DNA from: Ferruginibacter sp.
GTDB taxonomy: Bacteria; Bacteroidota; Bacteroidia; Chitinophagales; Chitinophagaceae
Assembly: GCA_017988335.1 (NCBI GenBank)
Contig: JAGNRZ010000003.1
Location: forward strand, 1 to 50,763
Direction: 5' to 3'
DNA: 50,763 nt
Notes under the pieces: generated by a model
The model's input: the letters and a program-made list of their open reading frames with translations, nothing else
Databases searched by the model: none
Told to the model about the DNA's origin: nothing
Translations under genes and position numbers: made by a program
In this document: positions 13,061 to 43,902 of the stretch, in pieces
Layout of the letters: every line of letters begins with the position of its first letter
Numbering within the stretch: position 1 is the first letter of the stretch

Positions 13061-13089
13061 ATGTACGATGTACGATGTTAGATGTACGT
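13061..13089 (+). repeat. 'GATGTTAGATGTACG' repeat, copy R1
   Basis: The copy begins ATGTACGATGTACGATG and continues with the core GATGTTAGATGTACG. It lies 26 nt upstream of the four-helix-bundle gene, and a copy differing at one base of 28 lies just after that gene (13468). Further copies are at 13511-13538 (inverted), 23732-23750 and inside mnmH (43421-43496). Confidence 0.85.
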
Positions 13090-13114
13090 CTTTTTACAAA
13101 ATATTTTATTTTTT

Positions 13115-13462
13115 ATGACATCAGACGAAATGAAAACTAGAACCAAGTTGTTTGCAATAAATATTGCTAAACTAACTCAGGAATTACCTAATACAGAAAT
13201 TAATAGACCTTATAAAGCACAAATAATAAGAAGTAGTAGTTCAGTTGGAGCAAATTATAAAGCCTCTAGAAGAACCAAATCGAATGCTGATTTTATTAAT
13301 AACTTAAAAATAGTTGAAGAAGAATTAGATGAATCATTATTTTTTTTAGAATTATTAGCTGAATTTAATCAAGACAAAAAAACTTTAATTGCACAGTTAT
13401 ATGTTGAAGGGGAAACTTTACTTAAAATAATTGTTGCATCAATCGTTTCATCAAGAAAATAA
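13115..13462 (+). CDS. four-helix bundle protein (23S rRNA intervening-sequence protein / S23 family)
   Basis: This is a 115-residue all-helical protein from the ATG at 13115; a reading back to 13082 would run into the repeat and is less likely. The family signature is visible: LTQELPNTE, then YKAQIIRSSSSVGANYKASRRTKS (about 39-62; string shortened in family terms to 'Q-x-x-R-S-x-S-S-x-x-A-N-x-x-E/A'), ADFINNLKIVEEELDES and LFFLELLAEF. Relatives are encoded in 23S rRNA intervening sequences, and a related protein (Avd) assists diversity-generating retroelements. Their biochemical role is unclear. Here the gene stands alone, framed by near-identical short repeats, with no reverse transcriptase or rRNA nearby. 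Confidence 0.88.
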   Translation: MTSDEMKTRTKLFAINIAKLTQELPNTEINRPYKAQIIRSSSSVGANYKASRRTKSNADFINNLKIVEEELDESLFFLELLAEFNQDKKTLIAQLYVEGETLLKIIVASIVSSRK

Positions 13463-13467
13463 AAAAA

Positions 13468-13538
13468 TGTACGATATACGATGTTAGATGTACGATTTTA
13501 ATACAAGCAGTCGTACATCGTACATCTAACATCGTACA
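13468..13538. repeat. 'GATGTTAGATGTACG' repeats R2 (direct) and R3 (inverted)
   Basis: R2 (13468-13495) is identical to R1 except for one base. R3 (about 13511-13538) is the reverse complement of the same unit (CGTACATCTAACATCGTAC), giving a hairpin of about 26-bp arms around a 15-nt spacer. The pair begins 6 nt after the stop of the four-helix-bundle gene and ends 37 nt before thiL. Confidence 0.88.
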
Positions 13539-23717: not shown

Positions 23718-23731
23718 AATTATGTTAGATT

Positions 23732-23750
23732 TTAGATGTTAGATGTACGA
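23732..23750 (+). repeat. 'GATGTTAGATGTACG' repeat, copy R4
   Basis: TTAGATGTTAGATGTACGA shares the core of the repeats that flank the four-helix-bundle gene. It lies in the gap just upstream of the SNF2 gene, as a single arm without an inverted partner. Confidence 0.7.
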
Positions 23751-23861
23751 TTGCCTTTACCTTTAGCTAACACTGGTTCAGAAAAGGGCAATTTGCAAAA
23801 GTAAAGGAAAACTTTTGGTATTTGAGGTGATTAAGAGAAGATTGTGAAAAACTTAATGTTT

Positions 23862-26943: not shown

Positions 26944-27441
26944 TTAATTAATGGATAATTGGTTAGTGGATAATGGATAATTTTTTATTCTTACCATAAC
27001 TAATTCTAAAGTGGGTGTATTTTGTTCATACTCCGTTTTAGCACTAATTGAGTTAATTTCTAGTAATACAAACAAATAAGTTTTTTTGTGAAATTTTATC
27101 TCTAAGATGCTTGACTTTTTCAACCTCCAACTTTGAGGCAAAGTACTCATATTCCACCCATTCCCATTTTTTGTAATTAAATTAATTTTACGAGACTTGA
27201 ATTTTATCTCAACAACTTCTTTATGTTTAGTTGTTTTCTCTTCGTCTTCACAATAATATTTAACATCAAATGCTTTAATACAGCTGTTGTGCTTAATGAG
27301 CTTTACAGTATCATTTGTAAAAAATCCATTTACATCATTACTTGCAAACCAAGACGTATTTTTAAATAGAGTTTTACTAAATTTTTGACTGTAAGCAGCA
27401 GTTGCAAAAAATAAAACTAGCATTAATATAAAACTCTTCAT
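26944..27441 (-). CDS. secreted hypothetical protein with a repeat-derived C-terminus
   Basis: This is a 165-residue protein from the ATG at 27441 with signal peptide MKSFILMLVLFFATAAYSQ. The mature part is rich in lysine and beta-prone, with two cysteines (SCIKAFDVKYYC) that could form a disulfide. No family is recognised. The last 12 residues (NYPLSTNQLSIN) are encoded by tandem 'GGATAATGG/GGATAATTGG' units, so the original stop was probably replaced when the repeat arrived. It precedes the SRPBCC gene by 1 nt. Confidence 0.7.
   Translation of the reverse strand: MKSFILMLVLFFATAAYSQKFSKTLFKNTSWFASNDVNGFFTNDTVKLIKHNSCIKAFDVKYYCEDEEKTTKHKEVVEIKFKSRKINLITKNGNGWNMSTLPQSWRLKKSSILEIKFHKKTYLFVLLEINSISAKTEYEQNTPTLELVMVRIKNYPLSTNQLSIN
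26945..26984. repeat. tandem 'GGATAAT(T)GG' repeat at a gene junction
   Basis: Units AATGGATAATTGGTTAGTGG and ATAATGGATAATT lie across the 3' end of the secreted-protein gene. They provide its last codons and stop. Confidence 0.65.
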
Positions 27442-41477: not shown

Positions 41478-42632
41478 TTACTGCTTTCTTCGAAAAACTA
41501 TGGCACTACTTTTTTGCATATCGCCGCTAAAGCGTATTTCGTAGCGTTCTTTACCATCGTATACAATTAACAAGCCTGTATTGGGTGGTAGGCTACCTAA
41601 GGTTTCGGCATACATTATTAATTGAATGCTATCTCCCACATTGGCAGTGCTTATTTTTTTACGAACGGCATTGGTACTTAGTCCTACTTTTGGCATAATA
41701 ACTTGTCCATTCATAATTACACTTACAGTATCACCATCTACCTCACCATTATCATACAAAGTAATATCAAGGCTATCGCTTGCAAAATAAACCGATTGTA
41801 TAATTTCAATTTTTCTGTTGGCTAAATTAGCCGCTGGTGTATTACTGTTTATTGTTTCGAATGGTTGTATAACAACTTGCTGTTTGTTGTTTGCTGCTAT
41901 TTGTGGTTGTGCTGTTTGTTTTATGGCGGCTATTTCTTTTTCAGCTTTTGTGTTTTGTGTTTTTGTAATGGCTGCAGCGTCTTGTGGCGTTGTAATTTCC
42001 ACTTGTGGTAATTGTTTTGTGGTTATACTTGCTATACTAGCCTCTTTGGGTAATTCATTTTTTATTGCTTCTACTTTGTTGTTTTGGATTGCGGCTAATG
42101 CATTTATTTTTTCTTGCTCTTCTTTTACAAAAGATAAATCATTTGCTAATCCTAACTCTTGCAAGTGAGGTATTAAGGCAGATTGTTTGTAAAAATCGTT
42201 TTTACGTTGCACATCAATATAGCCAGTAAGTGAGCTATACTCTTTTGTACGCTTTGTTTTAAATAAACCACTCAATCGCATTATGCTATCTTCTATACTT
42301 AGTGAAAGTGCATTTATTTGTTTTGTTCCTTTGGGTGGCGCTACGGGGTAATTGTGTGTTACCAATTCATCATCTTCAATTATATATTTATCATCTACCT
42401 TTTTTATTTTAATTTTTTTTAAGCCTTGATACACTTTGTCTTCGATTATAAAAAAAGTATAGCTATAGCCTGTTAATTTTTTACCTTCTTGGCTAATGGC
42501 TAATTCGTAACGCAAATCATTACCTGTGGTATCGTTGTGTAAAGTACCTCTCCAAAGCCCAGTAATATCTTGTGCTTTTAAAAAAGAAGGAATGAGTAAA
42601 AGAATAAAAACTATACGTTTGATGTTACACAT
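41478..42632 (-). CDS. secreted hypothetical protein
   Basis: This is a 384-residue protein with signal peptide ending LIPSFLKAQ. An N-terminal beta domain (DITGLWRGTLHND..., about 22-140) resembles a lipocalin-like or extracellular sensing fold. A low-complexity alanine/lysine/glutamate linker (about 165-260) follows. The C-terminal domain (NRKIEIIQSVYFASDSLDIT..., about 273-384) is beta-rich with DNGEVDGDTVSVIMNG. No named family is recognised. It overlaps the end of mnmH by 22 bp, so translation is probably coupled, though the link to selenium is unclear. Confidence 0.75.
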   Translation of the reverse strand: MCNIKRIVFILLLIPSFLKAQDITGLWRGTLHNDTTGNDLRYELAISQEGKKLTGYSYTFFIIEDKVYQGLKKIKIKKVDDKYIIEDDELVTHNYPVAPPKGTKQINALSLSIEDSIMRLSGLFKTKRTKEYSSLTGYIDVQRKNDFYKQSALIPHLQELGLANDLSFVKEEQEKINALAAIQNNKVEAIKNELPKEASIASITTKQLPQVEITTPQDAAAITKTQNTKAEKEIAAIKQTAQPQIAANNKQQVVIQPFETINSNTPAANLANRKIEIIQSVYFASDSLDITLYDNGEVDGDTVSVIMNGQVIMPKVGLSTNAVRKKISTANVGDSIQLIMYAETLGSLPPNTGLLIVYDGKERYEIRFSGDMQKSSAIVFRRKQ

Positions 42633-43750
42633 AATAAAACCTGTTTTGCGTTTTCTACTGCATCAACGCTATTACAAGGCATTTTATTTAAAAAAGATGA
42701 TAAATTTTCTCTATTATTTAAGCCTTTTAAATACCATTTATCGTAATAAGTAAGCAAAATGGTAAAACAAGCCGCTATATCTTTATTTTCTATGTGGTTT
42801 ATAGCATTTTTAGCTTCAAGGCCTCCAAGCCTTTTTTGAATACGATTAATATTTTCAATTATAATTGTTTTATCTAGGTTTCCGTATTCTTCTACAATAT
42901 GTTTTAATCTTTCTTCAAATGAGATGTCTAAAAAAATAACTTGGCTTTTACGCATAATGGTCCAAACGGAGTTGGGTATTTTAACATTGCCTATGCGTTG
43001 GCTTTCGTCTTCAATGTAGAAGTTGGTAGTTGGTGGTTGGTGGTTGGTGGTTGTTTCGTCTAATTCTTTTTCGATTAACGACCAACGATTAACGACCAAC
43101 TTTTCTGCTAATAAATTCTCAAACATTTCTTGGCTAGGTTGGTTGCCCACATACCCAAATGCTGATCCTTTATGATTAGCTAGTTCTTCTAAATTTATAG
43201 TAGGCAGGTTTTGCTTTTGCAATTCAATTAGTAATGGCGTTTTGCCGCTACCTGTAAAACCGCCAATAATAGTAAATTGATAAGGCATATCAAATTGCTG
43301 TAATACCCAGTTACGATAAGCCTTGTAACCGCCAACTAAAGTGTAAACTGTAAAGCCATACATATCTAATAGCCAGGCTACTGCTGCACTACGCATTCCG
43401 CCACGCCAGCAATGTACAAGTACGATGTTAGATGTTAGATGTACGCCTGAACTTATGTTTGAAGAAATATCGTACATCGTACAACGTACATCTAACAATT
43501 TTTCTACTTCCTCCACCATTCCTTTCATTTTTACACCAAAATAATCTAAGCCAATTTTAATAGCTTGTTGGCGGCTTTGTTGTTTATAGGCAGTACCTAC
43601 TACTTTTCTTTCTTCATCTGTAAATAATGGTAAACTTATGGCATTAGGTATATGTGCATGATTGTATTCGCTAGGGCTACGTACATCAAGCACAGGATGA
43701 TGGGCTGATAGTTGTAAAAATTGTTGTATGGTTATTTTTTGTATTGCCAT
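42611..43750 (-). CDS. mnmH: tRNA 2-selenouridine synthase with two repeat-derived insertions
   Basis: MnmH (SelU/YbbB) exchanges sulfur for selenium at the wobble uridine of tRNAs using selenophosphate. 379 residues from the ATG at 43750 (a GTG three codons earlier lies in repeat sequence). The rhodanese domain has DVRSPSEYNHAHIPNA and the active Cys114 in VHCWRGGMRS. The P-loop is GGFTGSGKT (163-171), and GSAFGYVGNQPSQEMFENLLA and YIEDESQRIGN follow. Two insertions are foreign to the family: residues 87-109 (...VRCTMYDISS...) just before Cys114, and about 217-243 (LVVNRWSLI, TTTNHQPPTTN) before IEDESQ. Removing both gives about 330 residues, a normal length. selD is nearby. Confidence 0.95.
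   Translation of the reverse strand: MAIQKITIQQFLQLSAHHPVLDVRSPSEYNHAHIPNAISLPLFTDEERKVVGTAYKQQSRQQAIKIGLDYFGVKMKGMVEEVEKLLDVRCTMYDISSNISSGVHLTSNIVLVHCWRGGMRSAAVAWLLDMYGFTVYTLVGGYKAYRNWVLQQFDMPYQFTIIGGFTGSGKTPLLIELQKQNLPTINLEELANHKGSAFGYVGNQPSQEMFENLLAEKLVVNRWSLIEKELDETTTNHQPPTTNFYIEDESQRIGNVKIPNSVWTIMRKSQVIFLDISFEERLKHIVEEYGNLDKTIIIENINRIQKRLGGLEAKNAINHIENKDIAACFTILLTYYDKWYLKGLNNRENLSSFLNKMPCNSVDAVENAKQVLLCVTSNV
43020..43100. repeat. two tandem-repeat tracts inside mnmH
   Basis: TTGGTGGTTGGTGGTTGGTGG (43024-43054 region) is read as TTTNHQPPTTN, and the tract ATTAACGACCAACGATTAACGACCAAC (43074-43100, split by family units of GATTAACGACCAAC) as LVVNRWSLI. They flank a few ordinary codons. The whole stretch has no counterpart in other MnmH proteins. 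Confidence 0.8.
43421..43496. repeat. 'GATGTTAGATGTACG' inverted-repeat element inside mnmH, copy R5
   Basis: Arm TACGATGTTAGATGTTAGAT-GTACG (43421-43445) and inverted arm CGTACATCGTACAACG-TACATCTAAC (43471-43496) surround a 25-nt spacer. It has the same arm/spacer/arm layout as the element after the four-helix-bundle gene. It is read in frame as about 23 residues just upstream of the MnmH catalytic cysteine. Confidence 0.9.
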
Positions 43751-43902
43751 TTTAGCCACAGATTACACAAATTAACACAAATGAAAAAAGGAGTAATTGT
43801 TTGCTAAGATAAATCATAAAAAGGTCTGTAAGGATGAATAACGAGATTAAGTACAAGAGTGCGACGCCAATTATGTAAAATAAAGAACTAATGTTGGCAA
43901 CA

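Follow-up and report, generated by a model that had tools for sequence, protein, structure and literature searches.

Genes of the IVP family (23S rRNA intervening-sequence protein, PF05635), for which we know of no agreed function, are frequently framed by two inverted repeat arrays, and comparison of genome sequences indicates that gene and arrays belong together as one unit. At this level of comparison the two arms are arrays, inverted relative to each other, of a short tandem unit, in most cases of 7 bp, that is private to the enclosed gene; the unit co-varies with the protein even where two loci have no neighbouring gene in common, and arrays of similar units lie elsewhere in the genomes, singly or as short-loop hairpins, some of them in frame inside genes. 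The occurrence of such arrays elsewhere suggests recognition of the repeat by the protein, which may also aid the spread of that repeat. We put at about one in two the probability that gene and arms act as a single unit in which the IVP protein would recognise its own repeat and help hairpin copies to persist or spread.

The window gene and its private inverted arms

The window, that is, the whole analysed stretch of 50,763 nucleotides from a Ferruginibacter draft genome (G000), holds an IVP gene of 115 residues on its forward strand at 13115-13462. A four-helix-bundle gene had been placed there by a sequence-only reading of this DNA, and profile searches bear this out: the protein matches PF05635 at 1.9e-11 (44.6 bits, above the curated cut-off of 33.8) and TIGR02436, “four helix bundle protein”, at 4.8e-18 (65.4 bits, above the cut-off of 24), and the start at 13115 agrees with those of the related genes L191 and L192 (MTSDEMK and MDSEEMK). 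PF05635 is the sole Pfam match of the protein at E <= 0.001, and no HUH/Y1 transposase domain was found in it. The family profiles match the structures 2rld and 2gsc, each entry containing five chains, and a reference title within the available text of PMC10053308 refers to four-helix bundles assembled in fives. The unit sits outside any 23S rRNA helix, between an FAD-binding (berberine-like) gene and an AIRS-family gene read as thiL.

The left arm, R1 (13061-13088, forward strand), consists of four 7-bp units (ATGTACG ATGTACG ATGTTAG ATGTACG) by repeat comparison and by Tandem Repeats Finder, which also resolves R3 into four 7-bp units and assigns R2 a period of 14. R2 (13467-13494, forward strand) is direct relative to R1 and differs from it at one base of 28, as the earlier reading had it apart from a start set at 13468 instead of 13467. 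R3 (13511-13538, reverse strand) is inverted relative to R1 with the order of its units shifted by one, so that 20 nt are exactly complementary, with 82-83% over the full arms. The short-loop hairpin of R2 with R3 (13467-13538), also proposed before, is well supported as an RNA fold (-30.2 kcal/mol, z -7.6). The complementary ends R1 and R3 place the IVP gene in a loop, a layout frequent among the relatives; by eye, the arms of the window gene contain GTAC and neither GTAG nor CGTC tags.

The draft genome (3.08 Mb, 261 contigs) contains ten PF05635 matches, two of which (L033 and L036), lying at contig ends, look like the two parts of a single gene. All eight IVP genes with both flanks present are framed by inverted arms of short repeats, and the unit differs from gene to gene (GTTGGTC/CAACCAC, AGTAAATAG, GATATTTA, GCTAATGT and TAATGGA among others), and their scores of 20-33 exceed the 99th percentile of cross-gene pairs (18; the 95th percentile is 14). 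An initial test under a different scoring scheme placed the own inverted score at the top of its row for seven of nine elements, and the split gene L033/L036 did not rise above its shuffles.

PF05635 was matched in all 29 genomes searched, G000 and 28 relatives, in 28 of them over the curated cut-off, and 88 of the 103 hits had both 250-bp flanks, a tail of at most 40 aa and a profile end of at least 95. The upstream flank matched the inverted downstream flank of the same gene above the 95th percentile in 65/88 and above the 99th in 48/88, leaving 23/88 at or below the threshold. The own inverted scores sum to 1791, against 910 (sd 24) in permutations with a maximum of 1035 among 2000; their mean is 20.4, compared with 10.2 for cross-gene pairs and 12.9 for the genes' own flanks in direct orientation. 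The direct pair R1/R2, previously taken as the frame, outscores the inverted pair at the window gene (30 against 20), which is among several such exceptions; direct repeats fail as the main frame of the family, where the inverted pair is usual.

Among 75 other genes taken from these loci, not one scored above 18. With flanks cut at the next gene, a score of at least 16 was reached by eight of the 12 IVP genes with clean intergenic flanks and by 5/196 other genes, so random genes are not flanked by the repeats at an equal rate, a possibility that the sequence-only reading had raised against itself. The five controls include one gene beside an IVP gene (L116), one GxxExxY gene and one gene between tRNA-like copies.

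The GxxExxY gene (L392:2433-2819, on contig 13 of G000) is PDDEXK_3 nuclease-like and is framed by CACCGCAGAG / ACGCAGAG hairpins; its inverted score of 22 is the joint highest of the 196 control genes, and it possibly represents a second partnership of a small gene with hairpins. In a relative (L409:1632-1892, G016), a small GIY-YIG-like ORF lies, by eye, between near-identical stretches resembling tRNA genes.

Breadth of the arrangement and the tie between unit and protein

The arrangement extends far beyond the relatives of Ferruginibacter. A scan of public genomes yielded 80 IVP loci from 562 matches, 78 of them usable, and among the matches listed 53/78 lie above threshold, under 14 group labels taken from record titles, some of which may be wrong for MAGs, and 25/78 do not. 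By group, again among the matches listed, the loci above threshold comprise Bacteroidota 17/30, Pseudomonadota 16/19, Acidobacteriota 6/8, Planctomycetota 4/6, Bacillota 2/3, Cyanobacteriota 1/2, unlabelled records 2/2, and 1/1 each for Verrucomicrobiota, ANME-1, Lambdaproteobacteria, Chloroflexota and Campylobacterota, with 0/1 each for Ignavibacteriota, Gemmatimonadota and Nitrospirota. In a sample of the gammaproteobacterial class, PF05635 was matched in 50/232 genomes (45 over the cut-off), and of the 25 usable loci out of 30, 22 scored above threshold and three did not; since L220 is identical with L042 and L268 with L350, the sets overlap by at least two genes. Four copies on plasmids of Calothrix and Nostoc (4/28 plasmid records) have inverted scores of 28-32 and units such as GGGAACA.

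Anatomy and units were compared in the 115 of 166 elements with an arm score of at least 16. The best period is 7 in 75/115 (33/63 in G000 and relatives, 42/52 in public loci among the matches listed) and otherwise mostly 14, 8 or 9, while shuffled arms spread over 3-15; the median arm measures 33 nt in the first set and 31.5 nt in the second, among the matches listed. Read in the sense of the gene, G outnumbers C in the 5' arm of 107/115 elements (56/63 in G000 and relatives, 51/52 in public loci among the matches listed), a fixed strand asymmetry that fits recognition of a single strand. Several relatives of the window protein have, by eye, a unit of the form GATKTNN (GATGTAC, GATGTTA, GATTTCG, GATGTCG), a form that is not universal, as L202, L205 and others differ.

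The unit was shared by 10/10 pairs of proteins at least 70% identical, by 21/38 pairs at 60-70% and by 22/3137 pairs below 30%. Antisense matches of units stayed at background except for two pairs at 60-70%, both involving L067, in the set of G000 and relatives. The IVP protein of L067 is 63-68% identical to those of L066 and L128, and its arms match theirs solely in antisense (score 19), possibly a strand flip of the dialect.

Inheritance explains part of this covariation, as 15/23 similar pairs checked in the public scan, among the matches listed, are syntenic. Among non-syntenic pairs, defined by the lack of a similar neighbour gene within about 2.4 kb, the unit is shared in 13/23 at 60% identity or more, compared with 39/4186 at 20-40%, the loci being short enough that some distant synteny may be missed. 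Units also diverge at one position: upstream of thiL, G030 and G033 (IVP 74-77% identical) retain GATGTAC and G012 (53%) has GATTTTA/GATTGCC in both arms, and at an alphaproteobacterial site L258 has AGGCAAT/AGGCAGT in both arms and the syntenic L230 (63% identical) has AGCGAAT.

The thiL tree places G053 as sister to G000 (100/100). Its site has identical neighbour genes and neither gene nor array, which may reflect a gain or a loss; presence upstream of thiL takes four changes on the 30-genome tree, shuffled labels give as few, and strong branches force two. No movement, target duplication or clean pair of empty and filled sites was seen among the loci compared. Two Calothrix plasmid copies with inverted arms were considered as a case of movement and set aside, as the neighbours common to both mean that they demonstrate none. 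One IVP copy with stops was found.

A catalytic extra domain was also considered for IVP ORFs of about 300 aa (L055, L090, L092, L093) and rejected: the C-terminal part is by eye RidA-like and not a nuclease, so that these ORFs look like fusions with the next gene. In L055, L090, L092, L093, L306, L308 and L310, from several genomes of the genus, IVP is followed in frame by a putative RidA-like protein with the array as the linker.

Arrays dispersed in the window, inside genes and across genomes

Distant copies of the repeat, previously noticed near 23732 and at 43421-43496, are real: a 22-nt core at up to three mismatches has six matches in the window (R1-R3, 23728, 43424 and 43471) and none in 100 dinucleotide shuffles of it. 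The array at 23719-23753 (forward strand; 7-bp type ATGTTAG ATTTTAG ATGTTAG ATGTACG) is a single one and best matches not the window gene's own arms but the arm of L065 in G001, whose IVP is 44% identical to that of the window. The solo inverted pair at 43421-43496 (fold z -3.3) is written in the dialect of the window gene and lies in frame inside mnmH (42611-43759, reverse strand, by profile typing). A second solo pair in mnmH, at 43022-43100 (43022-43053 and 43072-43100, inverted by eye), has the GTTGGTG/GTTGGTC dialect of L031, another IVP gene of G000, and a TAATGGA array at 26949-26981 (forward strand) has that of L035, a third. Together, the solo arrays of the window appear to belong to three dialects, of which mnmH contains two.

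Arrays of the window dialect are in frame in five genes of G000: mnmH, an apparent amidohydrolase gene and three genes read as ileS, tilS and holB. The corresponding loops of relatives contain no array, a similar unit or another unit (AACTGCA in the amidohydrolase of G030), and the arrays, those of ileS, tilS and mnmH among them, look like tolerated replacements in loops and not like clean insertions. Rickettsia palindromic elements are palindromic repeats tolerated in frame inside genes, and the IVP-type arrays resemble them in this setting. The mnmH loop contains hairpins of similar unit in G000 and G012 (L167, L008) and other sequence in G053, G016, G033 and G007; it is possibly a hot spot.

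The repeat that frames the window gene is dispersed through the genome as well, in line with the sequence-only reading. A 19-nt core has 36 hits in the whole G000 draft at up to three mismatches, seven of them overlapping in one TAAGATG array, compared with one hit for the reversed pattern, and the GTACGAT unit has 39 hits, 32 without the arms, at 14 distinct other places. Across genomes, dispersed copies track the cognate gene clearly for one dialect, weakly for a second and partly for a third. AGCGAAT, at up to three mismatches, has 64, 71, 81, 19, 96, 124 and 19 hits in the seven genomes whose IVP arms are of this dialect and 0-23 in 19 others, two Brevundimonas having 0 (rank test p 9e-5), these counts including overlapping hits and IVP arms in genomes of shared ancestry; in distinct places, G071 has 23 and G076 five, each including two probable IVP arms. 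G094, whose IVP is of another dialect, has 21 AGCGAAT-like places, all at three mismatches and many reading AGGGAAT.

GTACGAT places outside own arms number 5, 4, 2, 2, 1 and 0 in six other genomes with an IVP at least 40% identical, compared with a median of 0 in 52 genomes lacking one (p 0.006, with the 40% cut-off chosen after the fact). Only G030 and G033 of these six have the unit in their arms, and the richest of the 52, G029, G049 and G053 (8, 7 and 6 places), have no detected IVP of GTACGAT type. GTTCAATGA has 117, 107, 12, 3, 3, 2 and 1 hits in seven other genomes with an IVP at least 60% identical to L084 and a median of 1 in genomes without such an IVP (p 0.004), counted like AGCGAAT with overlaps and arms in genomes of shared ancestry; it is most abundant in G041 (168) and G062 (150), whose only detected IVP is of another dialect. 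Reversed patterns of the three units give 0-3 hits per genome, except for AGCGAAT in G083 (30) and G092 (34), and for GTACGAT 28 hits in all compared with 141.

Arrays found without any IVP reference point the same way. There were 34 in 296 kb of G000 and 31 in 400 kb of G016, and those with a best match in an arm of their own genome amount to 9/22 and 12/22, where even sharing would give 8/63 (binomial p 9e-4 and 3e-6). Own-dialect places per 100 kb come to 2.62 in G000, compared with 1.11 (p 0.004), and to 1.16 in G016, compared with 0.61 (p 0.007), although in the G016 sample the arms of G000, at 1.31 places per 100 kb, exceed the 1.16 of G016's own. The arrays found without IVP reference were single ones, since a strict de novo search gave too few hairpins: 5 in G000 and 6 in G016, of which 2 in each genome had a strong match, to own arms in 2 cases and 1 case respectively. 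Against the proposed tie of the repeats to IVP genes, arrays are also common in some genomes without a matching IVP. A long GTAGTCA array in G000 (L391:2730-2839) has only weak matches to IVP arms (17) and is perhaps an orphan dialect.

A possible counterpart of REPIN-RAYT systems

In REPIN-RAYT systems a small gene is framed by the repeat, short-loop hairpins of it are dispersed in the genome, and the type of repeat follows the RAYT. The IVP genes resemble them in each of these respects, and a REP-associated layout had been suspected for the window gene from the start; private inverted arms, a unit that follows the protein and dispersed hairpins support that suspicion, whereas no transposase domain was found and no movement was seen. 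Unlike RAYTs, with their HUH/Y1 transposase, the window protein matches PF05635 alone; unlike REPs, which are single elements (described with GTAG or CGTC tags), IVP arms are tandem arrays of about 7-bp units; and a genome may hold several IVP dialects.

In the reading that we favour, an oligomer of IVP would recognise its own repeat folded into a hairpin, either of RNA or of single-stranded DNA, and hairpin copies would spread or persist through a host enzyme that does any copying. Units enclosing the gene in their loop would be autonomous, and single arrays and hairpins of short loop would be non-autonomous or remnant forms. Such a system would parallel REPIN-RAYT, its protein being unrelated and non-catalytic.

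This model would also explain the 23S rRNA intervening sequence, whose complementary ends form a stem with the IVP/S23p gene in its loop according to the available text of PMC4990558. The window unit shares with it the protein family and the stem with a gene in the loop, and differs in lying between protein genes, in having arms built of tandem 7-bp arrays and in the dispersal of similar arrays. PF05635 is also described in the available text of PMC10053308 as resembling Avd of diversity-generating retroelements; of the few genes typed in the window, the two neighbours of the IVP gene are of the FAD-binding (berberine-like) and AIRS (thiL-like) families. Among the literature matches listed, no tie of PF05635 genes to tandem repeat arms was found besides the stem around the IVP gene inside 23S rRNA.

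The same arms may instead serve a device at the RNA level, turning the IVP transcript into a long hairpin through which IVP binding controls its own expression or stability and which RNase III may cut; dispersed arrays would then be binding sites in other transcripts, and no mobility would be involved. We regard this account as unlikely, though it is the alternative that we take most seriously. It agrees with a strand asymmetry fixed relative to the gene (107/115 5' arms with G > C), strong predicted RNA hairpins (z -7.6 for R2-R3), conserved syntenic positions (15/23 pairs among the matches listed) and the cutting of intervening-sequence stems in 23S rRNA by RNase III, as given in the available text of PMC4990558, but by itself leaves unexplained the abundance of dispersed copies of a single unit (in G071 there are 23 places, of which two are probably IVP arms), the copies inside coding genes and a dialect common to loci that have no neighbour in common.

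Slightly less probable again is a linked cassette resembling the intervening sequence, in which the gene travels with its arms, IVP does not act on arrays elsewhere, and solo arrays are deletion remnants or were spread by slippage or recombination. Gene and arms are indeed common to loci with different neighbours, many arrays occur in genomes without a matching gene, and the IVP copy with stops and the RidA-like fusions suggest decay; yet the abundance of AGCGAAT tracks its cognate gene, solo arrays match the arms of their own genome more often than under even sharing, and for GTACGAT in G000 solo places outnumber the gene-bearing one by 14 to 1.

Insertion of IVP genes into the loops of pre-existing hairpin arrays, themselves ordinary short-tandem repeats, is improbable. 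Solo hairpins exist, arrays occur without a cognate gene and intervening-sequence elements sit in rRNA helices (available text of PMC4990558), but with random targets the unit would not be expected to track the protein at loci with different neighbours, and a dialect-specific choice of target would again mean recognition. Chance, composition or assembly artefact is hardly credible: although several of the genomes are drafts rich in AT and low complexity is seen in some arms, the cross-gene, direct-orientation and other-gene controls speak against it, as do loci from many groups, including named isolates, and four plasmid copies scoring 28-32.

Recognition of each repeat by its own IVP protein, the reading preferred here, would bear on heptamer repeats described in other bacteria. 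Cyanobacterial STRRs are heptamer repeats, and IVP arms built of 7-bp units were found with TAACTGA (L206), AGGTGAC (Dolichospermum, L299) and GGGAACA (Nostoc plasmids). In their available texts, PMC4692102 describes GGGAATC in Xanthomonas and GGGGA(C/T)T in Nostoc, and PMC4679880 describes TAACTGA in Beggiatoaceae; for GGGAATC, positions 1-4 and 6 are conserved, mostly four units occur, and two genomes contain 70 and 75 inverted pairs (PMC4692102). The likeness of the units suggests a link to these repeats; IVP-related terms are absent from the main texts of both papers, and in the gammaproteobacterial sample GGGAATC arms were not found, with the near unit AGGGAAT present (L351).

A wider proposition can be put forward tentatively, as possible though rather doubtful: PF05635 proteins would be the missing partners of pan-bacterial short-tandem-repeat hairpins (archaeal, too, in one ANME-1 locus), each reading its own dialect of about 7 bp as single-stranded DNA or RNA and driving or maintaining its spread. 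The 23S rRNA intervening sequence, the cyanobacterial STRRs and the heptamers of Xanthomonas, Nostoc and Beggiatoa might then all be products of a second, independently evolved REPIN-RAYT-like system without a transposase, in which protein-repeat pairs would form a natural specificity code.

The IVP family is common, in 29/29 genomes of G000 and its relatives and in 50/232 genomes of the gammaproteobacterial sample. Were every gene to carry the repeat read by its own protein, a testable binding partner could be named for any framed member, and a candidate origin would be at hand for the heptamer repeats set out in the available texts of PMC4692102 and PMC4679880. The family would offer a possible second solution to what RAYTs do, and its many natural pairs of protein and repeat would make a specificity code directly testable.
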